From NCBI RefSeq assembly GCF_048771995.1, contig NC_133050.1, positions 7,860,501 through 7,924,500 on the forward strand: a stretch of 64,000 nt of DNA, given 5' to 3'. The notes beneath the pieces are model-generated. The model was given only the letters and a program-made list of their open reading frames with translations, did no database searches and was not told the DNA's origin. Each line of letters starts with the position of its first letter. Within the stretch, counting starts at the first letter, position 1. Shown here one piece after another: positions 17,326 to 44,440 of this stretch. The translations under genes were made by a program, and so were the position numbers. This DNA comes from Taeniopygia guttata (taxonomy: Eukaryota; Chordata; Aves; Passeriformes; Estrildidae).

Positions 17326-17600
17326 GGGACAAGCCCAACGCGCCCCGCGGGTTCCGCGTTCACCAAAATCGGCGTTTTCGGGGAAAAATCGCCTCGGATG
17401 TCGCTGTCACCGCCCGGGGGGCTGGGATGGGGTGTCCCACCCTTGTCAGTGTCCTCTTCCACTGTGCCATGTCCCCTTCCCAGTTCCAGTGTCCCCTCCC
17501 AGTGCCCGCGTCCCCTTCCCAGTTCCAGTGTCCCCTCCCAGTGCCAATGTCCCCTTCCCACTCCCCGTGTCCCCTCCCACTGCCCACGCTCACAGACACG
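17307..17600 (+). repeat. inverted repeat flanking the RFX5 terminal exon, copy 1
   Basis: The text from ggggcgtggtctcggtacgg through cgcctcggatgtcgctgtc to cagtgtcctcttccactg reappears in reverse complement at 24393-24550 with few differences. A shared GGGACACTGGAACTGGGA minisatellite extends both copies (to about 17600 here). Confidence 0.9.
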
Positions 17601-17624: not shown

Positions 17625-17630
17625 TTTACT
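17625..17630 (-). terminator. RFX5: possible AGTAAA poly(A) signal of RFX5
   Basis: TTTACT on the + strand, AGTAAA on the - strand, 6 bases past the RFX5 stop and followed by a G/T-rich stretch (tgtgactgtcgtgtctgtg). No AATAAA was seen before the PI4KB promoter. Weak assignment. Confidence 0.3.
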
Positions 17631-17635
17631 GGTTT

Positions 17636-20600
17636 TTACTGGTGTGGTGCAGGGGACCCCATCCCTGTGCCCGCCCTCGTGTGTGCTTCGTGGTGCCCGG
17701 AGCAGGGTTGTCCCTGTGTGTCCCCCATGGGCGACCCGGCCTGGCTGTGCCCCCGCTGTGCCACAGCCTCTGGTGCCACCCTGGCGCCCATCCTGCCGTC
17801 CCTGATGACGCTGACGCGGACAGGAGTGATGGGCCTGGCGGGCGCGGTGGCACTGCCAGGCCTGTCCCCAAGGGCACCGCTGCCACTGCCAGGCCTGTCC
17901 CCAAGGGTGGCGCTGCCCCTGGACGGGCAGTCCCTGACAGGGATGGCTGCGCTGCCACTGACTGGTGTGTCCATGACGGGGGGACTGCCAGGGATGTGCC
18001 TGTCCCCAAGGGTGGCGCTGCCCCTGGACGGGCAGTCCCTGATAGGGACAGTGGCACCGTCCCTTGATGGGTACTCCCTGACAGGGACAGTGCCACCGTC
18101 CCTCGATGGGCACTCCCTGACAGGGACGGTGGCACTGCCACCCACTGACCCGGCCCCAACAGGGAGCGTGGCACTGTCCCCAGATGGGCAGTCCCCGATG
18201 GGGACAGTGGCACCGTCCCTGGACGGGCAGTCCCTGACAGGGATGGTGGCACTGCCACAGGCCAGCGTGTCCCCGAGGGGGAGGATGGCGTGGGCAGGCA
18301 CCCTCGATTCCACGATGGCGGCGGTGACCCTAGGGATGGAGTCCCCAACGAGGACGGTGGCACTGACAAAGACGGGTGTGTCCACGATGGTGACGGTGCC
18401 CCTGGCCAGGCTGGCCTTGACGGGGACGGTGATGCTGCCCAGGATCCTCCTGTCCATCACAGTGCCGCTGAGCGTGACCAGCGCATCCACGATGGTGGCA
18501 GTGCCCCTGGACGGGCAGTCCCTGACGGGCACGGTGGCACTGCCGGCCACCGCGCTGTCCCCAGGGGTGCCGTAGGCCCAGAAGGGGCTGTCGCTGACGG
18601 GGACGGTGGCAGTGCCAGTGACACTGCTGGTGACGGGCGTGTCCACGATGGTGGCAGTACCCCTGGATAGGCTGTCCTTGACAGGGACGGTGGCACTGCC
18701 AGAGAGCAGCCTGTCCCCAGCAGTCCCACTGTCCCTGGAGGGGCAGTCCCTGCCAGGAGGGGTGCCACTGTCAGTGACCAGCCTGTCCCCAGCAGTGCCA
18801 CTGTCAGTAACCAGCTTGTCCCCAGCAGTGCCACTGACCGGCCTGTCCTCAACGGGCACGGTGGCAGTGCCACTGACTGGCCTGTCCCCAGCAGTGCCAC
18901 TGACCGGCCTGTCCCCAGCAGTGCCACTGACTGGCCTGTCCTCAACGGGCACGGTGGCAGTGCCCCTGGATGGGCTGTCCCTGGTGGGGACAGTGGCACT
19001 ACTCCTGCCCGGCCTGTCCCTAGTGTCAGGGGCCCTGGGGGACCTGTCCCTGGTGGGGACACTGCCAACAGCCCTGGGGGACCTGTCCCTGATGGGGACA
19101 GTGCCACTGGCCCTGGGGGACCTGTCCCTGGTGGGGACACTGCCAACAGCCCTGGGGGACCTGTCCCTGAAAGGGACGGTGGCACCATCCCTGACCAGCC
19201 TGACCCCGCTGCCACTGGCCCTGGCTGCGCTGTCCCTGATGGGGACACTGCCCCTGGCAGTGACCAGCCTGTCCCCAGTGGTGGCACTGCCCCTGCCAAG
19301 CCTGTCCCCTCTGCCACTGTCTCTGGGTGACCTGTCCCTGACGGGGACAGTGGCACTGCCCCTGCCCGGCCTGTCCCCAGAGGTGGCACTGCCCCTGGCT
19401 GCGCTGTCCCTGGTGGGGACACTGCCACTGCCCCTGCTCAGCCTGTCCCCAGTGCCACTGTCTCTGGGTGACCTGTCCCTAACAGGGACAGTGGCACTGC
19501 CCCTGCTCAGCCTGTCCCCAGTGGTGGCACTGCTCCTGGAGTGGCTGTCCCTGGCAGGGACGGTGGCACTGCCGGTCACCTCTCTGTCCCCAGTGCCACT
19601 GCCCCTGGGTGAGCTGTCCCTCCTGGGGACAGTGGCACTGCTGGAGACTGGCTTGTCCCTGGCAGGGACGGTGGCACTGCCCTTGACGGATCTGTCCCCA
19701 GGGGTGGCACTGCCCCTAGCTGTGCTGTCTCTGACGGGGACAGCAGCACTGTCCCTGCCTGGCCTGTCCCCAGCGGTGGCACTGCCCCTGCCCAGCGTGT
19801 CCCCAGTGGTGCCACTGGCTCTCGCTGACCTGTCCTTAACAGGGATGGTGGCACTGCCACCGTCTGAGCTGTCCCTGATGGGGACATTGCCACTGCCAGC
19901 AACTGGCCTGTCCCCAGTGGTGGCACTGCTCCTGCCTGGCCTGTCCCCGGTGGTGGCACTGCCCCTGGCTGCGCTGTCCCTGACAGGGACGGTGGCACTG
20001 CCCCTGCCCGGCCTGTCCCCAGCGGTGGCACTGCTCCTCACTGGCCTGTCCCCAACAGCAGTGGCCCTAGGTGACCTGTCCCTGGTGGGGACACTGCCAC
20101 TGCCCCTGCTCAGCCTGTCCCCAGTGCCACTGTCTCTGGGTGACCTGTCCCTAACAGGGACAGTGGCACTGCCCCTGCTCAGCCTGTCCCCAGTGGTGGC
20201 ACTGCTCCTGGAGTGGCTGTCCCTGGCAGGGACGGTGGCACTGCCGGTCACCGCTCTGTCCCCAGTGCCACTGTCCCTGGGTGAGCTGTCCCTCCTGGGG
20301 ACAGTGGCACTGCTGGAGACTGGCTTGTCCCTGGCAGGGACGGTGGCACTGCCCCTGACTGATCTGTCCCCAGGGGTGGCACTGCCCCTGGCCAGACTGT
20401 CCTTGACTGGTGCAGTGGCACGGCCACCAGCTGGGCTGTCCCTGACAGGGACAGTGGCACTCCTGGTGATCGGCCTGTCCCCAGTGGTGGCACTGGCCCG
20501 GGGTGAGCTGTCCTTGACAGGAATGGTGGCACTGCCACTGACTGGCTTGTCCTTGACAGGGACGGTGGCACTGCCGGTCACCGCTTTGTCCCCAGTGCCA

Positions 20601-23600
20601 CTGCCCCTGGGGGAGCTGTCCCTCCTGGGGACAGTGGCACTGCTGGAGACTGGCTTGTCCCTGGCAGGGACGGTGGCACTCCTGGTGACCGGCCTGTCCC
20701 CAGCAGTGCCACTGCCCTGGGATGAGCTGTCCCTGGCAGGGACGGTGGCACTGCCACCGACTGGCCTGTCTCCAGTGGCACCGTCCCTGGAGGGGCTGTC
20801 CTTACTGGGGACAGTGGCACTGCCACCAGCTGGGCTGTCCCTGGCAGGGATGGTGGCACTCCTGGTGACCGGCCTGTCCCCAGTGGTGGCACTGGCCCGG
20901 GATGAGCTGTCCCTGACAGGGATGGTGGCACTGCCAGGGCCTGGCTTGTCCCTGGCAGGGACGGTGGCACTCCTGGTGACCGGCCTGTCCCCAGCAGTGT
21001 CACTACCCCGGGATGAGCTGTCCCTAACGGGGATGGTGGTCCTGTCAGGGACTGGCTTGTCCTTGACAGGGACAGTGGCACTGCCACCAGCTGGGCTGTC
21101 CCTGGCAGGGACGGTGGCACTCCTGGTGACCGGCCTGTCCCCAGTGGTGGCACTGGCCCGGGGTGAGCTGTCCCTGACAGGGACGGTGGCACTGCCAGGG
21201 ACTGGCTTGTCCTTGACAGAGGCAGTGACACTGCGGCTGTCCCCAGTGGTGGCACTGCCCCGGGATGGACTGGCCTTGACAGGGACAGTGCCAGTGCCAC
21301 CAGCTGGGCTGTCCCTGGCAGGGATGCTGGCACTCCTGGTGACCGGCCTGTCCCCAGCAGCGTCACTGCCCTGGGATGAGCTGTCCTGCCTGGGGACAGT
21401 GGCACTGGCCCTGGCCAGACTGTCCTTGACGGGGATGGTGCCACTGCCACCAGCTGTGCTGTCCGTGATGGTGCCACTGCCCCTGGTTGGCCTGTCCCCA
21501 CTGGTGGCACTGATCCTGGAGGGACTGTCCTTGCCAGGGATGCTTGCGCTGCCATCAGCAGTGGGGACAGTGGCACTTCGAGCAACCGCCCTGTCCCTGG
21601 TGGCACTGGCCCTGGAGGGGCTGTCCTTACTGGGGACAGTGGCACTGCCGGGGACTGGCTTGTCCCTGACAGGACTGATGGCACGGCCACCAGCTGGGCT
21701 GCACCTGATGGGAATGGTGGCACTCCTGGTGACCGGCCTGTCCCCAGCGGTGGCACTGGCCCGGAGTGAGCTGTCCTTGATGGGGACAGTGGCACTGCCA
21801 GAGTCCAGCCTGTCCTCCATGGTGGCACTGCCAGTGACGGGTCCATCCTCCTCAGTGGCACTGCCAGTGTCCCACCCGTCCTCAGCGTCACTGACCATGG
21901 GTGAGCTGCCCCCGACAGGGACAGTGGCACTGCCACCACCAGGGATGCTGGCACTGCCACTGACCGGGCTGTCCCTAAGGGGGGTGGTGGCACCTCCCTC
22001 AGCTGGGTTGTCCCCAAGGGGGACAGTGGCACTGCCACTGACCAGGCTGTCACTAGGGGGGACAGTGCCACTGCCACTGACTGAGCTGTCACTAGGGGGG
22101 ACAGTGGAACTGCCCCCACCAGCAGAGCCACCACCAAGGACGCTGCCACTGACTGGGCTGTCACTAACAGGGACAATGGCACTGTCACTGACTGAGCTGT
22201 CCCTAAGGGGGACAGTGGCACTGCCACTGACTGAGCTGTCCCCAAGGGGGACAGTGGCACTGTCACTGACCGGGCTGTCACTAACAGAGACAGTGGCACT
22301 GTCACTGACTGAGCTGTCCCCAAGGGGGACAGTGGCACTGTCACTGACCGGGCTGTCACTAACAGAGACAGTGGCACTGTCACTGACTGAGCTGTCCCCA
22401 AGGGGGACTGTGGCACTGTCACTGACCGGGCTGTTACTAATGGGGACAGTGGCACTGTCACTGACTGAGCTGTCCCCAAGGGGGACTGTGGCACTGTCAC
22501 TGACTGCACTATCACTAACAGGGACAGTGGCACTGTCACTGACTGAGTTGTCACTAATGGGGACAGTGGCACTGCCACTGACTGCACTATCACTAACAGG
22601 GACAGTGGCACTGTCACTGACCAAGCTGTCACTAACAGGGACAGTGGCACTGTCACTGACCGGGCTGTCACTAATGGGGACAGTGGCACTGTCACTGACC
22701 AAGCTGTCACTAACAGGGACAGTGGCACTGTCACTGACTGAGTTGTCACTAATGGGGACAGTGGCACTGCCACTGACTGCACTATCACTAACAGGGACAG
22801 TGACACTGCAACTGACTGAGCTGTCCCCCGGAGGGACGCTGGCACTGTCACTGACCGGGCTGTCACTAACAGGGACAGTGGCACTCCCATTGACCATGCT
22901 GTCCCCAAGGGGTACAGCACCACTGCCACCGACCGAACTGTCACTAAGGGGGACAGTGGCACTGCCACTGACTGGGCTGTCCCCAAGGAGGACAGTGGCA
23001 TTGCCACTGACTGGGCTGTCCCCAAGGGGGACAGTGGCACTTCCACTGACTGAGCTGTCCCCAGTGGGGGTGGTGGCACTGCCACTGACCGTGCTGTCCC
23101 CAAGGGGGACAGTGGCACTGCCATTGAACAGGCTGTCCCCAGGGGAGACAGTGGCACTGCCACTGACCGGGCTGTCCCCACCAGCCACCGTGTCACCGTC
23201 AACCTCCATGCTATCCACAGCAGTCTCAGCAGCACCGCCAGCGATGCCCCTGTCCCCACCGGGCACGGTGGCACTGCCACCCCCGGGTGACCCCGCTGGG
23301 GGCGGCGAATCCCCTCCCTCATCCCCCCTGGGGACCTCCGCGTCCTCGGGTGACATCGCCGCGTCCTCGGGCCGCTTGCGGGGCCTCCCGCGCCGCCTCT
23401 TGTGCGCGCTGCCATCCGCGGCCGCCTCCAGCGCCCGCTTGGTGCCCTTGCCGCGCTGTCCCTCGCCGTCCCCCGCCGCCCGGGCCCCGCCGCCGGGGGT
23501 CTCGGCCGCGGGGACCCCCACGCCGGGCAGCAGCACGTTGAGCACGGGGATGGCGGCGGGGCCCGGGGCCAGCGCGGTGCCCACGGGCAGCGGCAGCGCC

Positions 23601-26600
23601 ACCTTGACCGTGCCGCCCAGCGGCGCCGCCGTCAGCCGCGGCACCAGCACCGGCGGGGCCGGAGCAGCACCGGGGCCCGGGGGCCGCTCGGTAACGGGGG
23701 CGCGGGGCAGCAGCAGCGGCAGCCGCGCCACCAGCGCGTTCACCTGCGGGCTGCTGCCCGGCCGCGCCGCCTCCGCCGCCTTCTTCTTGTCCGGCCGCGG
23801 GGGAACGGGGCCCTTGGGCACCGCGTCCTTCTTGGCCTGGGCGAGGGACGGGGTCAGCGCTGCGGTCAGCTCCGAGCGCCCAGCGGGTCGGGGAGGGGCC
23901 CGGGGTCTCACCTGCTCCTGCCCGCTGTCCGAGGGGTCCGGGCCGTTCTTCTTGGGGGCTGCGGCTGGCCGAGGCTCCTGCGGGGGCTTGTCCGTGCTCT
24001 CTGTGGGAGGAGGGGACGTGACCGGGGGGCAGGGGACACGGGGAGTGGGGAGGGTACATTGGGAGTGGGGAGGGGGCACGGGGAGTGGGGAGGGGACATT
24101 GGGAGTGGGAAGGGGGACACTGGAACTGTGGAGGGGTCATTGGGAGTGGGGAGGGGACACTGGGAGAGGGGAGGGTGCACTGGGAGTGGGGAGGGGGCAC
24201 TGGGAGTGGAGAGGGGGCACTGGGAGTGGGGAGAGGGCACTGGGAGTGGGGAGGGGACACGGGGAGTGGGGAGGGGGCACTGGAACTGGGAAGGGGACGC
24301 GGGCACTGGAAGGGGACACTGGAACTGTGGAGGGGACACGGGGAGTGGGAAGGGAACATTGGCACTGGGAGGGGACACTGGAACTGTGGAGGGGACATGG
24401 CACAGTGGAAGAGGACACTGACAAGGGTGGGACACCCCATCCCAGCCCCCCGGGCGGTGACAGCGACATCCGAGGCAATTTTCCCCCGAAATCGCCGATT
24501 TTGGTGAACGCGGGCGCGTTGGGCTTGTCCCGTACTGAGACCACGCCCCCAGTGGGGTGACAGCGTCCCCGGGGGGTGACAATGTCCCTAAAGGGGTGAC
24601 AGTGCCCCCAGGGGGGTGGCAATGCCGCCGGGGTGGTGGCAGCATCCCCAGGGGGGTGGCAATGCCCCCAGGGGGGCGTCCCCAAGGGGGGTGGCAGTGT
24701 CCCCGGTGTCCCTGGCCGACCTTGGACCACCATGGCCATGAGCAGGTCGGCGTGGGCTGAGCGGGGGCTGATGATGTGCTGCTGCAGCAGGAACTGCGCC
24801 ACCTCCACGATGTTGTTGAAGGAGCGGCGCAGGATCTTCTCGGCCCAGTCGCACGTCAGGGCACACGCGGCCTCCGTCACCTCGCTGCTGTAGGAGTGCG
24901 CCAGCTCGGCCAGCTCCGCCTGCGGGGACAGCACGGGGACATCAGACAGCGGGGTGGTGACACCAGGACACTGTCACCTCACTGCTGCAGGGTTCTGACT
25001 GCTGGGGACAGGACAGTGCGTGAAACCGGGGACAGGAGGACAGCAGGGACGGGACAGCAGGAGGGTCACGGTGTTGAGCAGGACACGGGAATGAGCCCAT
25101 GGAGCGGGATGGGGACAGGATGGGATTCATGGAGCAAAGCAGGACCTGCATCCCACCACCCCACCCCACCCCACCCCACCCCACCCCACCCCACCCCACC
25201 CCACCCCACCCCACCCCACCCCATCCCATCCCATCCCATCCCATCCCATCCCATCCCATCCCATCCCATCCCATCCCATCCCATCCCATCCCATCCCATC
25301 CCATCCCGCAGCTCTCACCGTCTCGGTCACTTTGAGGTCCAGGCTGGGCAGGGGAGGAAGGCTGACCACGGTCTTCCTCCGGATCCCGCCATAGCAGTAC
25401 GTTGGGAGGGTCAAGGATTTTTTCCCCAAGCCCAAAAAACCGGGAACCAACCCCTGAAGAACCCTCAGGAATGGGAAAAACTGGGGAAAACCGGGAAAAC
25501 CAGGAAAAAGAATGGGAAAAAAACAAAAAAAACCCAGGAAAAACCATGAAAAAGAGTAGCTGGCACCAGGAATTCCAGCCTGGGGAAGGATATTTGGATT
25601 GTCCGCGGCCTCCCAGGCGCCGGGCTTTGATGCTCGGGAAGATTTCCCGGATGATCTTGCCGAAGTTGGCCGTGCTCAGCGGGCGGCAGCCGAGGTTGTC
25701 GCAGTAGCGCCTGCGGGGAGGGAGCCGGCGTCACCGGGAATCCCGGGATACTGCCAGGGAATCCCGGGATATTGGCTGGGAATCCCGGGATACTGGCTGG
25801 GAATCCCGGGGCAGCGGGTCTCGGGGATGGGGGGAACCTGGGACACCAGGAAAGAGGACATGAGACACCTGGACAGGGGCACATGGGGACATGGGACATC
25901 AAGACAGCGGGTCCCCAGGGAGGTGGGGACGTGGGAACATGGGACACGAGGAGAAGGACGTGGGACACCAGGACAGGGACATGGGACACCAAGACAGGGG
26001 TCCCTAGGGAGGTGGGGACATGGGACACGAGGAGAAGGACGTGGGACACCAGGACAGGGGTCCCCAGGGAGGTTGGGACATGGGGACATGGGGACATGGG
26101 ACACCAGGACAGGGGCACATGGGACACCAAGACAGGGGGACATGGAACACCAGGACAGGGGTCCCCCAGGGAGGTGGGGACATGGGGACATGGGGACATG
26201 GGACATGAGGAGAAGGATGTGGGACACCAGGACAGGGGGACATGGAACACCAGGACAGGGACATGGGGACACGGTGCCGTGGGACACCCCGGCTCACTTG
26301 TAGGCGTCGTAGACGTCCTGCTTGGGCAGGCAGGTGTCCGTGTGCTCCTCCAGGTGGTTGCGGATCCAGCTGCAGGCGTGCATGTGCTCGGCCGTGCCCA
26401 GCGCGCTCAGCTCCAGTGAGGAGCCGCTGCCGCTGCTCCGCGGGGATGCCAGGCCAGGGGTGCCCCAGCAGGGACCAGGGACGGGAGGCACGGCCGGGGA
26501 GGGGAGGCACAGGGAGAAGAGGCAGTCGGCATCTCTGTCCTGGCTCTGGTCCGACAGATCCACCCTGGAGCATCCCTGTCCGTGCCATCCCATGGATCCC

Positions 26601-27457
26601 ATCCCATGGATCCCATTCCACCCCATCAGCTCCATCCTGATCCAGTCCTGTCCCAGCTTCATTCCATTCCACCTCCATCCCAAACCCTCCCACTCTCTCA
26701 TTCCCATCCCACCCCACCTCACCCCACAGATCCCACCCCACAGATCCCACCCCACCTCACCCCACAGATCCCGTCCCACGGATCCCCCCTCACCTCTTCT
26801 CGCCCAGGCTGGGCCCCGAGGGCAGCTGCAGGTACAGGTAGAGTTTGTCGCTGTCCGAGAACTTCTGCACATCCTGCTGTGCTCCCGGGACAAGGACAAG
26901 GTGACGGATCCAGCGGGACGAGCCCGAGAAACGGGATCAGCCAGCACAGGTGGGAATTCCCTGCCCTCCAGCCCAGCATTCCAGGGGAACACTCACCAGG
27001 ATGGAGTCCACCTTGCTCTGCACGGATTTGCTGCGTGGGACAGAGGCCGCGATGAGTCAGGGATGATCCCAGAAAATCCTGGGATCGCAATTCCGGCTCT
27101 TCCCAAGACTCCCGAGCTCCTTCCAGAGCTCAGAGATCCAGGATGGATCCCGGATGGATCCCACCACACCAGAGGGGTGCTGGACTGGTTTGGCACCAAA
27201 AGGGGCCCCTCTGTCCCCCTGGTGTCCCCTGTCCCCATCTCTCCTCCCTCCAGCCCCCAGGATTCCCGGTCCCCATCCCCGGAGCCCCGCCTGGGGCGCC
27301 CTGGCGGAATTCCCGAATTCCCGGGGCGCTGCCCTTACGAGATGTTGCCCCGGAGCTCCTGGAGCAGCGTGCTGGACTCGGTGGCACCGCCGCGGGCACT
27401 GCCCGGTGACAAAGTGCCCCTCCTGGTGGCTCTGGTCCCCAACTCCCCGTCAGCCAT
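17636..27457 (-). CDS. RFX5: RFX5, MHC class II X-box factor with a giant repeat-encoded C-terminal region
   Basis: DNA-binding subunit of the nuclear RFX complex (with RFXAP and RFXANK) that binds MHC II X boxes. Exons on the - strand: 27339-27457, 26997-27030, 26794-26876, 26298 to about 26432, 25594-25710, 25319-25400, 24721-24919, 23912-24000, 17636-23836. They total 7,059 bases, or 2,352 residues. The start is [32 protein letters not shown] is near residues 51-72. The winged-helix DNA-binding domain ([17 protein letters not shown] ... [18 protein letters not shown]) spans about 95-175. [15 protein letters not shown] is near 205-225, [17 protein letters not shown] at 317-333, and AT-hook-like KRRRGRPRK near 432. 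Residues from about 500 to 2285 are 13-residue repeats. The tail has VSVIRDGR at about 2294, resembling human VSVIKGSR. Intron 5 is AT-AC. The fourth exon's acceptor is ambiguous by 3-9 bases; all options stay in frame. The 75-bp intron 23837-23911 is stop-free, so it could be retained. Confidence 0.93.
17830..23210 (-). repeat. RFX5: 39-bp coding minisatellite in the RFX5 terminal exon
   Basis: About 5.4 kb, roughly 135-140 units by length, of a 39-bp unit encoding 13 residues of the type SATVPxxDSxVSx. Units near the array start (about 21,900-23,200) are acidic and serine-rich (SDSPVSD, GDSSVSG). Towards the C-terminus they turn basic, with [14 protein letters not shown] and VKDKPVP variants and some 11-residue units. 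The coding frame has no stop across the whole exon, and length changes appear to be multiples of three. By contrast, the intronic minisatellites nearby have freely varying lengths. Seen: repeat structure and open frame. Inferred: translation of the array. Ser/Thr/Pro/Val richness predicts a long disordered segment. Confidence 0.88.
24001..24720 (-). other. RFX5: RFX5 intron with a G-rich minisatellite
   Basis: No exon was found. It holds the GGGGACACTGGGAGTGGGGA array (24035-24420), the inverted-repeat core, and a looser 'ccccaggggggtggcaatg' array at 24545-24710. Confidence 0.75.
24110..24550 (-). repeat. inverted repeat flanking the RFX5 terminal exon, copy 2
   Basis: Reverse-complement partner of 17307-17600, inside the RFX5 intron 24001-24720. 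The non-repetitive core is 24393-24550. The rest is the 20-bp GGGGACACTGGGAGTGGGGA minisatellite, which begins near 24035. Confidence 0.9.
25147..25307. repeat. pentanucleotide satellite (CCACC)n then (CCATC)n
   Basis: A perfect run of about 14 CCACC units (to about 25222) switches to about 17 CCATC units. It lies in the RFX5 intron 24920-25318. Its purity suggests a young, length-polymorphic array. Confidence 0.97.
25401..25593 (-). other. RFX5: U12-type AT-AC intron in RFX5
   Basis: On the - strand the upstream exon ends GGACAATCCAA. The intron begins ATATCCTTCC, the hallmark U12 AT-AC donor. It ends TCCTTGACCCTCCCAAC before GTACTGC; TCCTTGAC fits the U12 branch-point consensus, about 10 bases before the terminal AC. 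Joining gives [14 protein letters not shown], exactly the conserved RFX DNA-binding-domain sequence. No GT-AG alternative preserves it. Length is 193 bp. Confidence 0.93.
25855..26265. repeat. GGGGACATGGGACACCAGGACAGG minisatellite
   Basis: G-rich array in the RFX5 intron 25711-26297, with units of roughly 12-26 bp and higher-order blocks containing 'ccccagggaggtgggga'. Many G-runs make G-quadruplexes likely on the + strand. Confidence 0.9.
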
Positions 27458-28363: not shown

Positions 28364-29769
28364 TGCAAGGCGCGTGCAAGGCGCGTGCAAGGCGCAGGGA
28401 AAGGAAAAATAAAATAATTTTATTTGAATTTATTTCGTCACGCGGGTCACGCACATCCCGCAATTCCCGAATTCCCAAATCCCAGAATTCCTGAATTCCC
28501 GAATCCCGGAATTCCCAAATTCCGAAATCTCAAACTCCAAATTCCCGACTCTTGGAATTACCAAATTCCCGACTCTTGGAATTCCCAAATCCCAGAATTC
28601 CCAAATTCCCAACTCTTGGAATTCCCAAATTTCAAACTCCGAATTCCTGATTCTTGGAATTCCCAAATTTTCAACTCCTGGAGTTCCGAAATTCCCAAAT
28701 CCCAGAATTCCCAAATTCCTAAATCTTAAAGTCTGAATTCCCTAATTCCCCACTATTGGAATTCCCAAATCTCGAATTCCCGACTTCCGGATTTCCCGGG
28801 GGGGATCGCAGCCAGTCCCCGCATTCCCAAATTCCTAGGAGGGGAAATAAATTGGGTATCAGATTTAAAAAACACCATTTAAATCAATTTTTTAATATAA
28901 ATCCCCGCTCCCACCGGGTGGGAATTCCAAGGAAAAGGGTTTGGAACAGCTGGAAAATTTCGGGGGAAAGGGATTTGAATGGTTCAAATTCCATGGAGGA
29001 ATTCCAGCCTCTCCCTGAGGGGAAGGATTTTTTCATTGTGGATTTTCCCGGGATTTGATCCCGGGATTTGATCCCAGGATTTGTTGTTGACTTTTCCTGC
29101 TTCTTTTTTTTTTTTTTTTTTTTTTTCCCTGGATTTCTGATCTCGGGTTTCGGATCGTTATTCCCAAAAAATGCCCTTTTTCCACACAAAAATGCCACTT
29201 TTAGGGAATAACCGGTAAACTCAGAGAGACGAGGGGAGGATCCTAAAACCCCCAAACCCCAAAATCCTCAGGGAAGAGGACCTGGAGCTCCCCGACTTTT
29301 CCAGGGGCTCCTTTGGAATGGGAGAGGGAAAATCCCGCAGTGCCGAGGGTTTTTGGGGAAGTTACAGATTTTTATTGGGAAAGGGGAAGAGTGGAGAAGT
29401 TTTAATTGAAGATAAATTAACTGGACGGGGTTTTAATTGCAGGGAGCGAGGCTTCGGAACGCGGAGTTCGGGATTGTGGGATTGTGGGATTTTTTGAGAT
29501 TTGGGGATTTTTTTGGACTTTAGGATGGATGGGACCTTAAAGCTCCGGTGGCCGCAGGAGCTGCCAGGCTGAGCTTGGGCAATTCCAGGGATGGGAAATC
29601 CATGGAAAAACCTGAGCCAGGGAAGGATTTATCCCAATTATTCCGCATTATTTCCGGGCAAAACCTTCTCCGGGAGCCCCCAGGGATAAAACACGGCGGG
29701 AAAAGAGGGGGGGGAAAAAAAGGAGATAAAAAAGGGATAAAAGAGGAATCAAAAAGGGATACAAGAGGG
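28364..29769. other. intergenic stretch between RFX5 and SELENBP1 copy A
   Basis: No gene was recognised. 28440-28790 is an array of 'ggaattcccaaattcc' words (unit about 12-24 bp). A poly-T run lies at about 29105-29126. The rest is unique, AT-richer sequence. Confidence 0.65.
28440..28790. repeat. GGAATTCCCAAATTCCC array
   Basis: Dense, imperfect tandem copies of gaattcccaaat(t)ccc. This is the purest local example of the GGAATTCC words that pervade the introns here. Confidence 0.85.
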
Positions 29770-29981
29770 ATAAAATAGGGATTAAATCCACCCCTGGAAG
29801 CAAACCCCGGGAAAAGAACCAGCGCCAGGAATTTCTCCCGGACACTTCCAGCGATCCCCGCACGGCCTGGCCCGGCCCGGCCCGGCCCGGCCCGGGGATT
29901 TCCAGGCCCCGCCGGGATTTGTTTGTCCCGGGATTTTTCCCGGAATGAGCCTCGGGAAGCTGCAGCTGATGCAGGAAAAAC

Positions 29982-29987
29982 TTTATT
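29982..29987 (-). terminator. AATAAA poly(A) signal, SELENBP1-like copy A
   Basis: AATAAAG on the - strand about 355 bp past the stop codon. The same motif is at 44232 in the other arm. Confidence 0.75.
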
Positions 29988-30064
29988 GATTGCAGGGAAA
30001 GCAGAGCTGCCCGGGGAGGGGGACGGGGACCGGGAACAGGGGACAGGGATGGCCGGGAATGGCC

Positions 30065-30275
30065 CGGGGGATCCCAAACCCTGAAATCACCTGGGGCACC
30101 CCAAAGCCCGAATCCCCCCAAACCCATCACCCAGGGCACCCCAAAGCCCGAATCCCCCCAAAGCCATCCCCCAGGGCACCCCAAAGCCCGGATCCCCCAA
30201 ACCCATCACCCGGGGCACCCCAAAGCCCGGATCCCCCCAAACCCATCCCCCAGGGCACCCCAAAGCCCGGATCCC
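30065..30275. repeat. 33-34 bp 3'UTR minisatellite, arm 1
   Basis: Five to six copies of a 33-34 bp 'ggatccccc...aaacccatc...caccccaaagcccg' unit downstream of the copy A stop. It is mirrored at 43940-44135. Confidence 0.9.
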
Positions 30276-30341
30276 CCGGGAGCCCCGGTGCCGCAGCCGA
30301 GGCCGGCGCTGCCGGCGGGACAGCGGCGCTGCCGGGGTGGC

Positions 30342-33300
30342 TCAGGGCAGGGTCACGGATTTGGAATCGCCGCCGGGGAAGCGAATCTCGTGCGCCAGGC
30401 ACGGCCCGTTGGGCTCCTTGCCGAAATCCACCAGGAAGTTCTTGTTGACGGTCAGGCCGCCCTTGTCCGTGTCCACGTCGAGCTGCAGCATCACCGAGCC
30501 CTCCCTGCGCGGGGACAGCGGCGGCTCGTGGGACAGCGCCCCGGGGCCGCTGCGGGGAGCGCCCGGCCGGGGCCAGCGGCACGGGCTGGGCCGCCTCTGG
30601 CTCCCCGCTGCCCGCAGGAGGGGCACAAAGCCGTGCGCAGGACGGGCTCGGCGCCTCTTGCTCCTCCCCAGCTCGCCCTGCAGCGGCTCAGGCTGCGCCC
30701 GGCCAGGCCGGACCCCCTTGGGCCGAGCTCAGCCCGGGCTCGGCTCCATCCCGGCCCCGCCGGGGCTCGGCCGGGAGCGGCTCCGGGGCAGCCCCGAGGG
30801 GTCGCGGCCCCTTCCCCACGCCCGCCCGGGCCCGCGGAGCCTTTGGCAGCCGCGAGTGGCTCACTTGATCAGGCTGGGGTAGAACTGCTGGTCCCAGGTG
30901 CTGTAGAAGGAGTTGGTCACGTAGAGCCGCTTCCCGTCCAGGCTCAGCTGCAGCGCGGCGGGGCCTCCGTACACGCGCTTGCACTGGAACACACGGACTG
31001 GGCTTACTGGGGGCACTGGGACACACGGACTGGGGGCACTGGGGGCACTGGGACACACGGACTGGGGGACTGGGGGCACTGGGAGCGCTGGGACACACGG
31101 ACTGGGGGCACTGGGGGCACTGGGAGCACTGGGATGCACGGACTGGGGTTAATGGGAGCACTGGGGGCATCGGGGCTGCTGCCATCAGAGACAGTGAGAG
31201 CACGCTCAGGGTCACCCGCGCTCGGGTGAGCACACACAGCCACGCTCAGCCGGGCACACACTCACCGCCCACACCCAGGTGAGCACGCACCCACGCTCCG
31301 GTGCGCACACGCTCACCCACGCTCCGGCTCAGCCCCAGCCACGCTGCCCCGTCCCGCCCAGGCGCTGCCGGCCCTGCCGGCCGCTCACCTTGACCACCAG
31401 CGGCTCGGGCTGGCACTTGAGCTCCTCGTCCCTGCACACGGTCACGGGGCCCCCTCGCAGGATGCTGCCGCCCACGAACACCTGCAAGGGCCGCGCTGGC
31501 ACACGAGCGTTCCGCGGCCGCGGCCCCGCGGGCCCCGCTCCCCCCCGGGCCGGGCGCTGCCCCTCACCTGCCCCACCAGCCGGGGCTTGCAGTTCCTGGC
31601 CAGCTCGTACTGCCGGATGTCCCCGTGCCACCAGTTGCTCACGTACAGGAACCGGTCGTCCGGGCTGATGACGAGGTCGGCGATGAAGGCTGCGGGCAGA
31701 GCCGGGGCTCAGGGCACGGGCAGAGCCGGGGGACGGCGCGGGGGCCTGGCCGGAGCTGGCCTTTGGGGCAGGGACGGGCACATCGGGCTCGGCCAGCCTT
31801 TGGGCTCGGCCAGGATTGGGGGTCACCGAGCAGGGCTCTGGAGCCGCCCGGCCGGGCTCTGCGGTCACCGCCCGGGCTGTGCCCGGCTGCAGAACGCGCC
31901 CGGGGAAGAGGAATGCCAGCCCCGAGGGCACACGAACCTGGCATCGTGGGCATGATCCAGCCCCTCACGTCCTTGGCCGGGATCCGGATCACCTCCTCCA
32001 CGGCCCAGTTGTCTCTCTGCACAGGGACACCGAGCCCGGCTGAGCCGCGCTGCCCCCGGCCCGAGCCGAGCCGGGCACAACGGGCATCCCCCCGCTGCCC
32101 CGCAAGCCCCGGATCTAGTGCTCCCTGGCCCCGCTCCTCCTCCTCCTCCTCCTCCTCCTCCTCCTCCTCCTCCTCCTCCCTGCCGGCTCTCCCAGCCCCG
32201 GGCCGCTGCCGCCGCTCGCACTCGCCTCGCAGGGTCTGTAGAGGCGGAAGATGGTCCCGCTCAGGGCACAGCCCACGTAGCCCTCGGTGGCCTCGGGGCT
32301 GTGCAGGAAGCGCACGCTCAGCGGCAGGGAATCCTCGCCCAGGTCGAAGCACTGCGTGAGGCTGCGGCACGACAAGTTCCACACGTTCAGGCGGCGGCCG
32401 AAGACCCCTGCGGGACACGGGGGGAAAGGCTCGGGGGTGTCCGGGGACAGGCACCGCTCCCCGGAGGGCTCCTGCTGGGGAGCGGCACGGAAAGGGCAGC
32501 AGCTGGGCAGGAGAAACTGGGAAATGCAGCATTTGGGGAGGAGAAACTGGGAAATGCAGCATTTGGGGAGAGCACAGAGGAATGCAGGATTTGGGGAGAG
32601 CACAGAGGAATGCAGGATTTGGGGAGAGCACAGAGCAATGCAGGATTTTGGAGCAGCCCGGCCCTGCCCGCCCTGGGTTCCAGCCCTGCCCATCCTCAGC
32701 CCGAGCCTGGCAAAGGCTCTGGGGCTCAAATCGGCCCCTCGGGGGCACCGAGCCCCGCCAGCCCCGCGCTCAGCCCTGCCATCGCTGCCAGCCGCGTGTC
32801 CCCACCTTTCTTGAGGTCCTCGGGGTTGAAGCCACGCCCGGCCAGTCTGGGCACCATCCCGGCCGAGCTGACCAGCACGTTGTGCTGGGCCTGGTACCAG
32901 AAGTCGTAGCCGGTCGGGGGAGCCTCACACTCGTTCTCCCAGTTGCCCTTCAGGTCGTAGCTCTCTCCGTCCAACTGCAGGAAGCCACCTGGGACACGCG
33001 AGGGACGTGGCGGTGACAAAGCCAGGCTCCCGCCTTCCCAGGGGGACTCCCGGGATGGCAGTTCGGGCAGGGACATTGGAGTTCGGGCAGGGAAACGGGC
33101 ATTCGGGCAGGGAAATTGGAGTTCGGGCAGGGAAACGGGCGTTCGGGCAGGGAAACGGGCGTTCCGGGAGGCACAATTCACCTTTGCCGTTGCCAGCGGG
33201 GTCGCCCATGTTGGCGATCAGGATGTCCCCGTTGGGCAGCGGGTGCGTGACAGCCAGGTAGCCCTTGTTGCACTTCCAGAAGACATCCACGGGCTCGATC

Positions 33301-35158
33301 ATCTGCAAAAATCGGCGCAAAGTTCAGCCTCCGCCTGCTCGGCGCCTTTCCCGGCATCACCGAATCCTCCCTCCGCGCCTCCCTCCCGGAGCCCCCCGCC
33401 GTTCCCCTCCCTCCCTCCCTGGCTCGCTGCCGCCCCGGGCTCGCCCCGGCCGTACCTTGCAGATCCGAGGCGCCCGGCACTGGGAGCCCACATCCACCAC
33501 GTAGATGCGGGAGGAGATGAGGCACGGCAGGACCAGCCTGGTCCTTCTGGCCGCGGCGCCGCTGTCGAAGCAGCCGCAGGCGGGGCCCCAGCCCGCGCAG
33601 TGCAGCTCGTCCTTGAGGTTGGGCATGGGCAGCCGGTGGATCACCTGGGCACGGCCAAGGCAGCTCAGCCCGGGCCGGGCCGGGCTTGCCCCGCGGGGAG
33701 CGGCCCCGGGCTTTGGGGGGCTGCGGAGAGGGGCCGGGAGCGGCCCCGGGCTTTGGGGGGCTCCGGAGAGGGGCCGGGAGCGGCCCCGGGCTTTGGGGGG
33801 CTCCGGAGAGGGGCCGGGAGCGGCCCCGGGCTTTGGGGGGCTCCGGAGAGGGGCCGGGAGCGGCCCCGGGCTTTGGGGGGCTCCGGAGAGGGGCCGGGAG
33901 CGGCCCCGGGCTTTGGGGGGCTCCGGAGAGGGGCCGGGAGCGGCCCCGGGCTTTGGGGGGCTCCGGAGAGGGGCCGGGAGCGGCCCCGGGCTTTGGGGGG
34001 CTCCGGAGAGGGGCCGGGAGTGGCCCCGGGAGCAGAGGGGACTGGAGAAGGTGTCCCTCGGGTTTCTTTTCCCCGAAAGAAGAAGAAGAGCTCCCCGGGC
34101 AGCCCCGGAGGACGCGGGGAGCGCGGCCCCGCAGCGATCCCGCCCCGGGCCCAGCGGGACCGGTACCTGGCCGTAGTGGCAGGAGCGCGGGTTGAGGTCC
34201 ACGGTGGCCAGGAAATCGGGCTGCTCGGTGCAGGTGCTCCTGTAGGTGCAGGTCACGTAGGCGACCTCCTCCCTCGGCGCTGGGGACACAAAAGCGCGCT
34301 CAGACCGCGCCGGGAAGCCCCGAACGGCGCGGGGAAAGCTCCGGGCGGCTCTCACGAGCGACCGCCGGGATTTTCGGGCTGCTGCGATTCACTCCAGCTC
34401 CCCTCGGGCGGCCCCGGGGCCGCTTCTGAGCCGGGAACAACCAGGAGGAATCTCCGGCAGCTCTGGGAAAGGGGCTCAGCACAGACCCTGCGCTCAGGGG
34501 GACCCCCAGAAACCCCAAATCCCCCCGTTCCAGCCCAGCCCCCGGCCAGCACTCGCCTTTCAGCACGTCGGGACACGCGGGGTACTCGTAGCACGGAGCT
34601 CTGCACCTGTCTGGGGAGCAAAGGGGACACCGTGAGCCCGGCCCGGGGCCCGCACCCCGACCCCGTTCCGAGGATCCCTCCCTCCCCCGGGACCCCCGGG
34701 GCCACCCCGGCCCTCCCTGGGCACCCGGACGAGCGCTCGGGGTGGCGCTGCCACCCCCCGGCTGCGGGACAGGGACCCTGGGGACAGCGCGGGGCCGAGC
34801 CCGGCTGGGGACACCGGAGCCCGCGGGGACCCCTCCCCATCGCGGGGACGGGACCGGGCACGGACGGGACGGGGACAGAGCTGTGCCCTGAGCCGGGATG
34901 GGGACAGAGCTGTGCCCTGAGCCGGGATGGGGACAAAGCTGTCATCCGGAGCTGGGATGGGGACAGAGCTGTCACCCATAGCTGGGATGGGGACAGAGCT
35001 GTCACCCGGAGCCGGGATGGGGACAGAGCTGTCCCCTGAGCCGGGACAGGATGGGGACAGAGCTGTCACCCGGAGACGCACACGCTGGAAGCTCCAGCAC
35101 GGTCAATCCCTCTGCATCCCCGGCGCTGCGGGGCGAGGCCGGGGGGTCCCTTACCCAT
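30342..35158 (-). CDS. SELENBP1: SELENBP1-like paralogue, copy A (complete, 12 coding exons)
   Basis: Member of the selenium-binding protein 1 / methanethiol oxidase family (cytosolic; oxidises methanethiol). Exons on the - strand: 35155-35158, 34557-34610, 34167-34279, 33456-33644, 33182-33302, 32806-32988, 32226-32407, 31938-32016, 31568-31689, 31389-31481, 30865-30983, 30342-30504. They total 1,422 bases, or 473 residues. It starts [15 protein letters not shown] and ends [17 protein letters not shown]. Family blocks include [54 protein letters not shown] and [16 protein letters not shown]. The human Cys57 position (PQYCQV) is Gly here (CHYGQV), and cysteines number 23. Introns 2 and 7 start with GC. 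It looks intact and is almost identical to copy B. Whether it has oxidase activity is unknown. Confidence 0.95.
30990..31160. repeat. GGGGGCACTGGGACACACGGACT minisatellite, arm 1
   Basis: Array in the SELENBP1-like intron 30984-31388, mirrored in arm 2 at 43060-43230. Confidence 0.9.
32133..32180. repeat. (CTC)n triplet tract, arm 1
   Basis: Perfect CTC run in an intron. It is one unit longer than its mirror at about 42045-42083. Confidence 0.9.
33701..34030. repeat. 40-bp VNTR, arm 1 (8 units)
   Basis: Eight near-perfect copies, starting every 40 bp from 33701, of cggccccgggctttgggggg followed by ctccggagaggggccgggag, in the intron 33645-34166. The arm 2 array has six units. Confidence 0.96.
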
Positions 35159-35270
35159 GGCTGCAGCTTCGGGGGTCGCGGTGCTGGCGGCGGAGGAGCC
35201 GGAGCTGAGGGGCAGCTGCTGCTGTCTCGGGGCTGGAGCGGCTGTGCCGTGCCCTGGCTGCTGCCGGGGG

Positions 35271-35277
35271 CCTTTTA
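35271..35277 (-). promoter_or_regulatory. TATA-like box, copy A
   Basis: GGATAAAAGG on the - strand, about 115 bp upstream of the copy A ATG and mirrored at 39021-39030. The transcription start is probably near 35245. Confidence 0.6.
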
Positions 35278-38193
35278 TCCCCGCCAAAGGGTGGGGGGAG
35301 CGGGGCCAAGCCCAGGGAGGGGCTGCCCAGCGCTTGGGAGGTGCCAGCCCGGCGCTGCGGCTTCTCTCCTCCTCCCCGCCGCCAATCTGGGCCCAAATCT
35401 GCTGCTCCCTGCAGCTCCCGAAGCCCCAAACCTCGCCGGCCCCGGCTGATCCCGGCCTCGCTCCGCACCCGCAGCGGCCTCCACCGAGCCGGGCCCGTGC
35501 CCGGGGCACCCCACCCCTGCTCCTGGTCCTCACAGGGGGATCCCGCTCCCCATCCCCATCCCAGGGAGCAGCCCCGCAGGGTCCCCGAGCAGGCTCTGCA
35601 CAGGGACAGTGGTCTGGGAGCTCGGGGATACCGGGATGAGCTCGGGGAGCTGCTCAGAGGTTCCCAGGGAACTGGGCCAGACCCAGAGGACACCGGGAAC
35701 CCTCAGGAAATCCACCCTGAACCCCCTGGGGCAGCAGCAGTCAGAGCAGGACACAGGGCAGCCTCCCAGGGTGGCACCTGCGGGTTGGGACATGGGGCCC
35801 GCTGCGGACAAGGGGACTTGGGGAGCTCAGCACTGGGAATTGGGGCCGAAAGGACAGCGGCCAGAGCCTTGCGGGCCTTCTCTGCACTGTGCGAGCAGCA
35901 AAGTCGCGAAAACGATTGGGTTTTGGGGTGGAAAATTACAAAAAAGCACTTCCAGGGCAGGGCAAACACCTGGGATCGGCACCGAGCCCTGCCAGAGCCT
36001 GCCCAGGCACCAGGGCAAGCCCAGCGGTGACCCCGGGACAGCCAGCGACACTCCGGGGCAGGAAAGGCTTCAATTAAATCCTGGAGGTGAGGAGAAATCA
36101 TGGGAAAAATCGGCTCTGAGGCCGATGTCGGGAAAGAAGCCGAGATCTGGGCGAAAGCAGTGCCAAGAGAAGGACGGAGCTCAGGATCCCCCGGGATCGG
36201 GCAGATCCCAGCACGGGAACCACTCTGGGATTCGGGGAAAGCCCCAAGAAGGGGGCACAGCCAAGGACCCCCAGAGCCGCCCCATCCCTGGGGCTGTCCC
36301 GGCCTGACCGGGGCTCGGGGCTCCCCGAGCCGGGCACGGGCGGAGCGAGGGCGGCACCGGCACCGCCGCAGCCGAGGAAACGGCTCCAGCTGCCATCCCC
36401 AACATCGTGGCACAGTCAGGGAATGCCCCGGGCTGGAAGGAGCCTGGAGCTCCGCTCGTGCCCCCCGTGCCGTGGGCATGGACCCCTCCTGCAGCCGCAG
36501 CTGCTCCAGCCCGGCCGCGGAGCCGCTTCCCGCTGGGAAACTCCGGGAATTCCGGCAGCGGCTCCCGGGCTCAGTCCCGGGGCCGCCTTTGGCCTCCAGC
36601 TCCACTTCAGTCCCCCCTGGGCCGGGCCGGTGTCCCCCGCGCTGCCCCTGCTGTCCCCACCTGCTCCTTCCCTGACGCGGCACACCCGCTCATTAGCCGG
36701 CTCATTAGCCCGCCCCTCATTAAGGACCGCGCTGCTCCCGGTGGCTTCCCGTGCTGACGTCGCCGTGTCCCTCCCTGTCCCCGCTCGGCGCTCGCGTGCC
36801 CCCACGGCGCTGATAAGAGCGAGATAAGCTCCCGTGGCCGCAGGACAAGCCCCGGCACCCTCCGGCCACCGCCCACGCCCCGCTGGCCACTCCTGCCCGC
36901 TCGCCACCGGCTCCTCCGGCCCCCGGGAAGGACACGCCGGGATTTGGGGATGCTCCGCCGCCACCTCGGACAGTTCCCGGCTCCGGCAGCGGCTCCAGCC
37001 GCCCGCAGCTCCCGGCGAGGCTTCGGCTTCCCCCGAGCCCCCGGGGAAGGTGCCTCCTTCAGCACCTCCCGTTCCTAAATCCCGATTTCCCGAGCTCTCC
37101 ATCCTCCCTTCGCAGCGTCCCGACCCCTCAGCCGGGCACTGAGCACCGGCAGACTTTGGGAAAACGTTTCCGTGCATGGAGCGAGCCCCAAATCCCACCG
37201 GCCATTCCTTCCCGGGCTGGAATTCCATCCACGAGCCGCTCCCGGGGCTGCGCAGCGCTCCCGGCTCTCCCATCAGCCGCGGGCACCGAACAGGGAGAAA
37301 GCCTTGAGCTTAAATCCCCTCCCAAGCCAAGAATTCCCAGATTTTCTGATGACTCGGTGGGAAAAGGGTGATTTTTGGGAGCTGACTCCCGAGTTCACCG
37401 GGAAGTGTGACAAAACCCGAAATTCCATGGCCAGTGGAAGGCAGGAGGCAATGGATGAGCTCGGGAGTTTGCTCCCCGCTCCACCACCACAAAAAAAAAC
37501 AGGAAAAAAATCACACTCGGGGGAACCCGCGAGCTCCTTTTCCTCCGTGCCACAGCCCCAAACTCCGGGAGGGTCCCGCTGCAGCCCGGAGCGGGGACTT
37601 GGAACGGGACCGAGGGAAGAGATTTGTCCCTGTCCCTGCCGAGGGGGACACGCGGGGAGCCCGAGCCCCGAATTCCCTCGGGATCGCTCCAGGGAACACC
37701 CGGACCCCCAAACCAACAGCCAAAGCCGGCGAGGAGGAGCCGCTGCCCTGGGCTGGATCCCAAAATTCCCAACGCTTTGAAGCTTTTTGGGCGAGCGGCC
37801 CCCGAGGAGCTGCCAAAGCCTGAAGTAATTCCAGGGCGTCTCTCGCTCCTCTGGATCCGCTTAGAATGAGGGAGTTGAAAGGCTCGGGGTGGCCTTTCCT
37901 CCCTCCACGGGGCAGGAATGTCCAGCTCCAGAGGCTTTTAGGGATGGGCAGGACAGATCCCAAGTGAATCCCTTCCAAATCGGGGGAGATAAACACGATC
38001 TGCAGTGTCAGGAACGGGAGAAATCTGATTTTCCCTGGATTATGGGAAGTGGGGATGAGCAGGAGAAGCCGGGAAACTTCCCGAGCCGGGCTGGAGGGAC
38101 GCTGCCCCCACCTGTGGTCATGGAAAAGCCGCAACGAGCACAGGGAGAACCAGCCCAGCTCACCTGGGCGCAGGGAGGGGCAGGAAATAATCG

Positions 38194-38470: not shown

Positions 38471-39022
38471 CGACCAGGAATTCTCCACTCCAAATCACAC
38501 CGGGAAGGGAGAGGCATTTTCCCGTTTGCAGGAAGAATTTCCCCAGATGTCCCACCCTGAGCCTCCCGTGGCGCAGCTCGAGGCCGTTCCCTCTTGTCCT
38601 GGACCTGTTCCTGGGATCAGATCCCAGATCCCTCCTGGCAGACCCGAAATTCGCCGGGATCGCCCTTTTCTCCAGGCGGAGATCCCAGACCACTGTCCCT
38701 GTGCAGAGCCCGCTCGGGGACCCTGCGGGGCTGCTCCCTGGGATGGGGATGGGGAGCGGGATCCCCCTGTGAGGACCAGGAGCAGGGGTGGGGTGCCCCG
38801 GGCACGGGCCCGGCTCGGCGGAGGCCGCTGCGGGTGCGGAGCGAGGCCGGGATCAGCCGGGGCCGGCGAGGTTTGGGGCTTCGGGAGCTGCAGGGAGCAG
38901 CAGATTTGGGCCCAGATTGGCGGCGGGGAGGAGGAGAGAAGCCGCAGCGCCGGGCTGGCACCTCCCAAGCGCTGGGCAGCCCCTCCCTGGGCTTGGCCCC
39001 GCTCCCCCCACCCTTTGGCGGG

Positions 39023-39029
39023 GATAAAA
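39023..39029 (+). promoter_or_regulatory. TATA-like box, copy B
   Basis: GGATAAAAGG about 115 bp upstream of the copy B ATG, identical to the arm 1 motif. Confidence 0.6.
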
Positions 39030-39143
39030 GGCCCCCGGCAGCAGCCAGGGCACGGCACAGCCGCTCCAGCCCCGAGACAGCAGCAGCTGCCCCTCAGCTC
39101 CGGCTCCTCCGCCGCCAGCACCGCGACCCCCGAAGCTGCAGCC

Positions 39144-43877: not shown

Positions 43878-43939
43878 GCCACCCCGGCAGCGCCGCTGTC
43901 CCGCCGGCAGCGCCGGCCTCGGCTGCGGCACCGGGGCTC

Positions 43940-44135
43940 CCGGGGGATCCGGGCTTTGGGGTGCCCTGGGGGATGGGTTTGGGGGGATCCGGGCTTTGGG
44001 GTGCCCCGGGTGATGGGTTTGGGGGATCCGGGCTTTGGGGTGCCCTGGGGGATGGCTTTGGGGGGATTCGGGCTTTGGGGTGCCCTGGGTGATGGGTTTG
44101 GGGGGATTCGGGCTTTGGGGTGCCCCAGGTGATTT
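43940..44135. repeat. 33-34 bp 3'UTR minisatellite, arm 2
   Basis: Mirror of 30065-30275. Units contain 'ggctttggggtgcc' and a 'gggatggg' spacer. Confidence 0.9.
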
Positions 44136-44231
44136 CAGGGTTTGGGATCCCCCGGGCCATTCCCGGCCATCCCTGTCCCCTGTTCCCGGTCCCCGTCCCC
44201 CTCCCCGGGCAGCTCTGCTTTCCCTGCAATC

Positions 44232-44237
44232 AATAAA
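44232..44237 (+). terminator. AATAAA poly(A) signal, SELENBP1-like copy B
   Basis: 'caatcaataaagtttttcctgc', about 355 bp past the copy B stop. Confidence 0.75.
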
Positions 44238-44440
44238 GTTTTTCCTGCATCAGCTGCAGCTTCCCGAGGCTCATTCCGGGAAAAATCCCGGGACAAACAA
44301 ATCCCGGCAGGGCCTGGAAATCCCCGGGCCGGGCCGGGCCGGGCCGTGCAGGGATCGCTGGAAGTGTCTGGGAGAAATTCCTGGCGCTGGTGCTTTTCCT
44401 GGGGGTTTGCTTCCAGGGGTGGATTTAATCCCTATTTTAT

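Follow-up and report, generated by a model that had tools for sequence, protein, structure and literature searches.

Why does a regulator of immune genes carry about 140 equivalents of a 13-codon repeat inside its last coding exon, and how has such an array kept its reading frame? The question is raised by RFX5 of the finch Taeniopygia guttata, in a window of 64,000 nucleotides (assembly GCF_048771995.1, contig NC_133050.1, positions 7,860,501 to 7,924,500; all positions given here are counted within the window). RFX5 activates the promoters of major histocompatibility complex (MHC) class II genes together with RFXAP, RFXANK and CIITA, and MHC class II expression requires it. The probable answer, in our judgement, is an RFX5 gene in which an ancestral 13-codon linker segment has been tandemly amplified by the process called stuttering, with the conserved C-terminus beyond the array acting as a filter for frame.

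Identity of the gene and extent of the array

The nine exons on the minus strand have matching phases and join into a coding sequence of 7,062 nucleotides, or 2,353 codons and a stop, in agreement with the in-phase exons and the length of about 2,352 residues predicted by a first-pass annotation made from the letters alone. The boundaries and size which that annotation had given the terminal exon (Table 1) are also recovered, and the first stop in this exon is the final TAA. Exons 1 to 8 encode RFX5_N and the winged-helix DNA-binding domain; the Pfam matches to RFX5_N (2.5e-27) and RFX_DNA_binding (4.1e-28) are both far above the Pfam cut-offs, and the best solved-structure match of the finch model is human RFX5 (PDB 8zjr, 1.4e-62). 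The flanking exons belong to PI4KB, SELENBP1 and POGZ, giving the order PI4KB-RFX5-SELENBP1-POGZ, which we take to be that of human 1q21. The tail with VSVIRDGR, previously noted for its resemblance to human RFX5, is a real RFX5 C-terminus, sharing 56 of 63 aligned residues with the last part of the Lonchura protein. With domains, synteny, VSVI motif and tail all present, the gene is the RFX5 orthologue, as had been proposed.

Two explanations that would remove the question altogether bear on this gene model. A pseudogene or dead paralogue with a neutral array is extremely improbable: no supporting point was found for it, the 201-residue core of exon 9 has a single match across the whole assembly (1,140,912,852 bases in 41 contigs), exons 1 to 8 and the tail are intact, and the phase of the array is kept. 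An artefact of assembly or copy number, in which the true allele has few units, is very improbable as well. In its favour, tandem arrays are difficult for assemblers and several passerine gene models are interrupted at this site; however, the window contains zero N and sits on a contig of 8,195,000 bases with telomere repeats at its end, about 270 kb away, the units are diverged rather than identical, and errors would be expected to scatter the frame instead of keeping it.

A wraparound alignment divides the array into 152 segments, mostly of 13, 11 or 10 residues, of which 74 are gapless 13-mers. Its 1,818 residues correspond, at 13 residues each, to about 140 unit-equivalents, in keeping with the earlier count of about 135-140 units. 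About three quarters of the predicted protein consists of this array, whose guanine-plus-cytosine content is 65.9% and which ends just before RPITPVR.

Preservation of the reading frame

The spacing of short words gives the simplest measure of frame. Identical 12-mers in the array form 10,340 pairs, every one of them spaced by a multiple of three, whereas in 27 of 29 control arrays 15-71% of such distances are divisible by three. The other two controls, both short (17447-17588 and 25736-25810), also reach 100%, and many of the control units in this comparison are not multiples of three; an alignment test against 12 control arrays of the window is therefore the fairer control. Base-level alignment of the RFX5 array to a 39-base unit (21% mismatches) places 98.2% of aligned bases in one phase, and a stiffer gap penalty raises the single-phase share of array bases to 99.3%. 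The modal phase in the 12 controls, aligned with the penalties that gave 98.2%, accounts for 51-84% of aligned bases (3-12% mismatches). Three of the 12 control units were trimmed by one base to a multiple of three, which puts those three at a disadvantage, but the nine untrimmed arrays likewise give 51-84%. The earlier claim of a frame-preserving array, unlike the non-coding minisatellites nearby, is borne out by these figures.

Length changes within the array show the same pattern. The AGTGCCAC anchors are in one phase in 80 of 80 cases, across 21 different spacings and 57 spacing changes. Of 129 gaps in the array, 99 have a length divisible by three, versus 13 of 123 in 22 control arrays, and for distinct gaps the counts are 34 of 60 versus 12 of 88. 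Duplication offsets with an identity of 90% or more across 150 bases number 13; each is a multiple of three, six of them not being divisible by 39. One block of 287 nucleotides is a recent in-frame duplication or exchange, and its 98.6% identity to a block 672 bases away indicates that exchange has been recent as well as old. Phase is strong evidence that the array keeps its frame.

Openness as such was considered as proof of coding and was rejected, since an antisense open reading frame (ORF) of 1,984 codons (18606-24560, plus strand) overlaps the array. Within the array there are no stops in the RFX5 frame, 9 and 80 in the other two sense frames, and a single stop in one antisense frame; the expectation under a first-order Markov null is 29 stops per frame on average (range 15-44). 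A random one-base change in the array leads to a stop after a median of 34 codons for insertions and 194 codons for deletions. The antisense ORF is probably a by-product of the near-palindromic GTCCC..GGGAC unit combined with frame preservation on the other strand. A Pfam scan of large ORFs gave a match for none of seven.

Origin of the repeat unit

A profile of the array was compared with the RFX5 proteins of 17 chosen taxa, namely 12 non-passerine birds, two passerines, a turtle, a crocodile and a frog. In nine of the 12 non-passerine birds, as far apart as ostrich and condor, exactly six residues separate the end of the best match from VSVI; examples are GSATSPLGDSPAG in Gymnogyps, GSATKPLGDSPAG in Indicator and GTATSPVGDTPAK in Rhea. 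The same position holds in both passerines tested, Lonchura and Aphelocoma. In a galliform-like protein, a hummingbird and the hoazin the best profile match lies elsewhere, and the unit is absent from turtle, crocodile and frog RFX5 (0 of 3). Because a single unit stands at a fixed position before VSVI in most of the other birds tested, the 39-base-pair repeat is an amplified piece of RFX5 itself, an ancestral segment of the gene. This origin had been missed by the first-pass annotation. The distance from the AT-hook-like motif (a label that we assume for this motif at the end of the core) to VSVI is 1,853 residues here versus 32-101 in the other listed bird models that have both motifs.

Three galliform or galliform-like RFX5 proteins have a different short repeat before VSVI, for example GDNGHRGDNGLRGDNGHRGD or GDNGHRGDNG. 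The RFX5 linker may be prone to repeat growth, with separate growth in the galliform lineage.

Songbird annotations and the possibility of splicing

Comparison with other passerines was made on annotated proteins only, using the best 120 of 543 matches, and the matches listed include at least eight species that we take to be passerines. Identity to the RFX5 core of the finch is 95.0% in Lonchura striata (438/461), 89.8% in Molothrus aeneus (405/451) and 87.4% in Aphelocoma coerulescens (402/460). The cowbird Molothrus has a model of 738 residues in which about 18 units, in the same frame, directly follow the core; 12 of these 18 are nearest to units of their own array, two are nearest to units of the window and four are ties. 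The Onychostruthus model reaches a matching array start and then terminates, while for Corvus, Catharus, Myiozetetes and Acanthisitta the models are short or incomplete and stop before VSVI. A MEVD segment is common to the window, Molothrus and Onychostruthus, and PI before TPVR is common to the window and Aphelocoma; both are missing in Lonchura. Since Lonchura lacks them although it is the closest to the window, its short form looks derived, whether by deletion, by collapse of the assembly or through annotation of an intron. A search with array and core for proteins of 1,136-3,615 residues listed one match, an unrelated hemichordate protein. Because the listed models end or break at the array site in several different ways, current songbird RFX5 annotations are probably incomplete there.

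Several observations nevertheless count against amplification of the linker under a frame filter. The Molothrus model breaks after its 18 or so units and ends in the non-unit sequence SSCQRPP, without the tail, and Lonchura (543 residues) and Aphelocoma (555 residues) are annotated with one unit and a full tail. The earlier proposal to follow array length and frame into related birds has a mixed answer: the Molothrus units are in frame, but its tail is missing and the other two have a single unit. A search with the RFX5 N-terminus for proteins of about 866-2,754 residues gave 27 matches with no named passerine among them. Within the array, the short word GTCCC is in phase in 69 of 75 copies, and in a permissive self-BLAST only 1,005 of 2,257 gaps have a length divisible by three, with 69 of 74 hit offsets in phase. 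We read this self-BLAST result as alignment noise, because 6-base gaps at imperfect borders split easily. Finally, moderate donor-like sites occur within the array, the best scoring 7.1 on a simple matrix; the seven GT donors of RFX5 score 4.4-10.8 on the same matrix.

These sites and the one-unit annotations are what an exitron would explain. In that case the array would lie in the terminal exon and be spliced from most or all of the messenger RNA, leaving the usual protein of 500-600 residues with one unit before VSVI, and the need for an intact frame would persist through a minor unspliced form or through splicing between units. The annotated Lonchura and Aphelocoma proteins have their unit at the ancestral six-residue distance from VSVI, the acidic part of the array has repeated donor-like sites such as CCGGTCAGT, and pyrimidine-rich acceptor-like sites are present. 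However, donor-like sites scoring at least 5 are no commoner in exon 9 than after codon shuffling (24 versus a mean of 24.6), and an array that was intronic throughout should lose phase, as intronic arrays here do. An exitron is conceivable but unlikely.

Residue constraint and charge

If reaching the conserved C-terminus is what matters, the frame is expected to be kept and the residues hardly so. Among the 74 gapless units the synonymous excess is not significant, either for all changes from the consensus (192/583 synonymous, permutation p = 0.11) or for distinct changes only (25/84, p = 0.28), although this test cannot single out the true frame, an antisense frame giving a lower ratio (0.72 versus 0.91). 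Purifying selection on the array residues, tested on these units, thus found no significant support and was rejected. Mean pairwise residue identity of gapless units is 68% in the first part of the array and 52-57% in the other two. Selection is visible on the frame and not on the residues.

Summed over 80-residue windows, residues 441-1000 have a net charge of -59, residues 1001-1880 one of +61 and residues 1881-2353 one of +1. The polarity described in the first-pass annotation, acidic near the core and basic towards the C-terminus, therefore stands for its acidic and basic blocks but not for the final stretch, which is near neutral. Aromatic residues are rare (8 of 1,818), and the array carries 48 SP/TP and 51 [ST]xx[DE] sites.

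The charge split and these sites speak for a gained functional domain, a block polyampholyte selected for RFX5 clustering or for co-activator contact at MHC class II promoters, and charge patterning has been linked to transcriptional condensates in those parts of the literature that were consulted. Against such a domain, there is no significant synonymous excess among the 74 units; the polarity can also arise by block-wise amplification of two founder types, and Lonchura is annotated without the array. Selection for a new domain is decidedly unlikely on this evidence, and the earlier suggestion that the lineage has gained one is, at the level of sequence, unproven. A tolerated, overgrown linker accounts for unit divergence without significant synonymous bias no less well than a selected domain would.

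Feature coordinates and local repeats

The coordinates of the gene and of the array are collected in Table 1.

Table 1. Features of the RFX5 locus in the window
Feature	Position	Strand	Basis or remark
In-frame array, 1,818 residues (model residues 470-2287)	17837..23290	-	152 aligned segments, 13-residue consensus
Acidic array part	21812..23290	-	up to residue 962, cumulative-charge minimum
Basic array part	19058..21811	-	about residues 963-1880; 13-residue and shorter 11-residue units
Distal array part, more degenerate, near-neutral	17837..19057	-	
287-nucleotide block	20088..20375	-	98.6% identical to 19416-19703, offset 672 nucleotides
Terminal exon 9, 6,201 nucleotides: core, array, tail, stop	17636..23836	-	continuous open frame
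AT-hook-like motif, end of conserved core	23375..23401	-	
Conserved C-terminal tail and stop	17636..17836	-	homology to the Lonchura tail; VSVIRDGR at 17792-17815
RFX5 exons 1-8 and introns	23912..27457	-	splice sites, phases; Pfam; human RFX5 structure
RFX5 exons 1-4	27457-27339, 27030-26997, 26876-26794, 26435-26298	-	
RFX5 exons 5-8	25710-25594, 25400-25319, 24919-24721, 24000-23912	-	
Two AGTAAA hexamers, candidate polyadenylation signals	17625..17640	-	first overlaps the stop codon

On the minus strand from 17650 to 12000 there is no AATAAA, ATTAAA or AGTAAA beyond the two AGTAAA hexamers at the stop codon, and since these are the only such hexamers the transcript plausibly ends just after the tail. 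The intron between exons 5 and 6 (25401-25593) starts with ATATCCTT, ends in AC and has TCCTTGAC near its end; it looks to us like a U12-type AT-AC intron.

Tandem repeats make up 44.5% of the RFX5 introns while the eight short exons are almost repeat-free, which places the gene in a region of local repeat growth. Within the array there are 37 hairpins of the form GTCCC-N3..9-GGGAC, whereas codon-shuffled versions average 0.7. Two 300-base stretches of the sense RNA also fold more favourably than shuffled versions do (z = -2.45 and -5.60). Such hairpins and folding may promote instability of the array and hinder the synthesis of complementary DNA.

Repeats are also frequent elsewhere in the window, of which 27.6% is covered by tandem repeats with a Tandem Repeats Finder score of at least 50. 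A minisatellite family at 24027-24397 recurs inverted at 17447-17588 (87% identity over 133 bases, no plus-strand match), and these copies around the last two exons bracket the array-bearing stretch with inverted repeats. A large inverted repeat lies between RFX5 and SELENBP1, with arms at 29751-35623 and 38679-44460 and a spacer of about 3 kb; its arms align over 4,203 and 1,848 bases with identities of 99.3% and 99.8%, and a minisatellite with a 40-base-pair unit has 8.4 copies in one arm versus 6.4 in the other.

Proposed explanation

The starting point would be a single ancestral 13-codon segment in the linker that joins the AT-hook-like motif to the VSVIxDGR motif. Tandem amplification would have raised it to about 140 unit-equivalents, as a coding-exon form of the intron stuttering seen on small avian chromosomes, with unit exchange and block duplication both creating and deleting copies. 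Any length change not divisible by three would shift the frame and lose the conserved C-terminus, and would be purged by selection; residue changes within the array would be largely tolerated. The growth itself would have been tolerated because the linker is flexible. We infer that selection for the C-terminus is the cause of the frame preservation described above and that the array is translated. The predicted product would be an otherwise normal RFX5 whose very long, flexible linker, first acidic and then basic, would hold the VSVI motif far from the DNA-bound core. As an estimate from rough polymer scaling, the two ends of 1,853 residues would lie about 46 nm apart on average, versus 5 nm for 45 residues.

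A more far-reaching version is a long shot: that the array is translated at full length and varies in length among finches, and that the acidic-basic linker tunes RFX5 clustering or coupling of the C-terminus at MHC class II promoters. If this were true, a coding minisatellite would act as a tuning dial on songbird MHC class II expression.

Comparison with known systems

The first comparison is with the RFX5 genes of non-passerine birds. That of Gymnogyps californianus (614 residues) has the same domains, the same core and both the AT-hook-like and VSVI motifs, with the single unit already noted. The difference is one of linker length, 32-101 residues between the motifs in the listed bird models that have both, against the 1,853 of the finch.

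Coding minisatellites are a second point of reference. Mucin repeats are coding minisatellites with a unit length divisible by three in which frame is kept. The PRDM9 zinc-finger array, so far as the consulted excerpts describe it, shares these features with the finch array as a coding minisatellite whose unit length is divisible by three and whose frame is kept. The finch array likewise consists of tandem units that stay in frame, its translation being predicted from the gene model. Units more alike within a species than between species are a further likeness, seen here in the Molothrus units. The finch array differs in lying in the linker of a transcription factor, between conserved motifs, and in having a variable unit length.

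The third comparison is with avian stuttering. In the sections available of the report on chicken dot chromosomes, intronic repeats have grown, sometimes copying the ends of exons, while no stuttering block crosses into exons and coding regions are intact (PMC12954441). The finch array resembles the stuttering described there in its local origin and in tandem units of tens to hundreds of bases, and also in its setting, a small GC-rich avian chromosome (a finch contig of 8,195,000 bases, a candidate for a dot chromosome) on which the introns of the same gene are heavily repetitive. It differs in lying inside a terminal coding exon and in frame, whereas the blocks in those sections are confined to introns. 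The finch array thus works like stuttering but is not a member of the class as defined in those sections.

Among the matches listed from titles and abstract openings of the open-licence PubMed Central literature, no such array is described; in the portions available, PMC8449477 does not name RFX5 and PMC3605853 has it only in the reference list. The array is a predicted coding minisatellite, produced by stuttering that seems to have entered an exon, and such an in-frame, frame-filtered expansion of an ancestral coding segment is unusual in a regulator of this rank in immunity. It looks like an exception to what the available sections of PMC12954441 state, namely that stuttering on small avian chromosomes spares exons. 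Since one locus brings together the unit in its ancestral form, the filter for frame and the resulting product, coding stuttering becomes measurable here, as in-frame versus out-of-frame length changes across songbirds.

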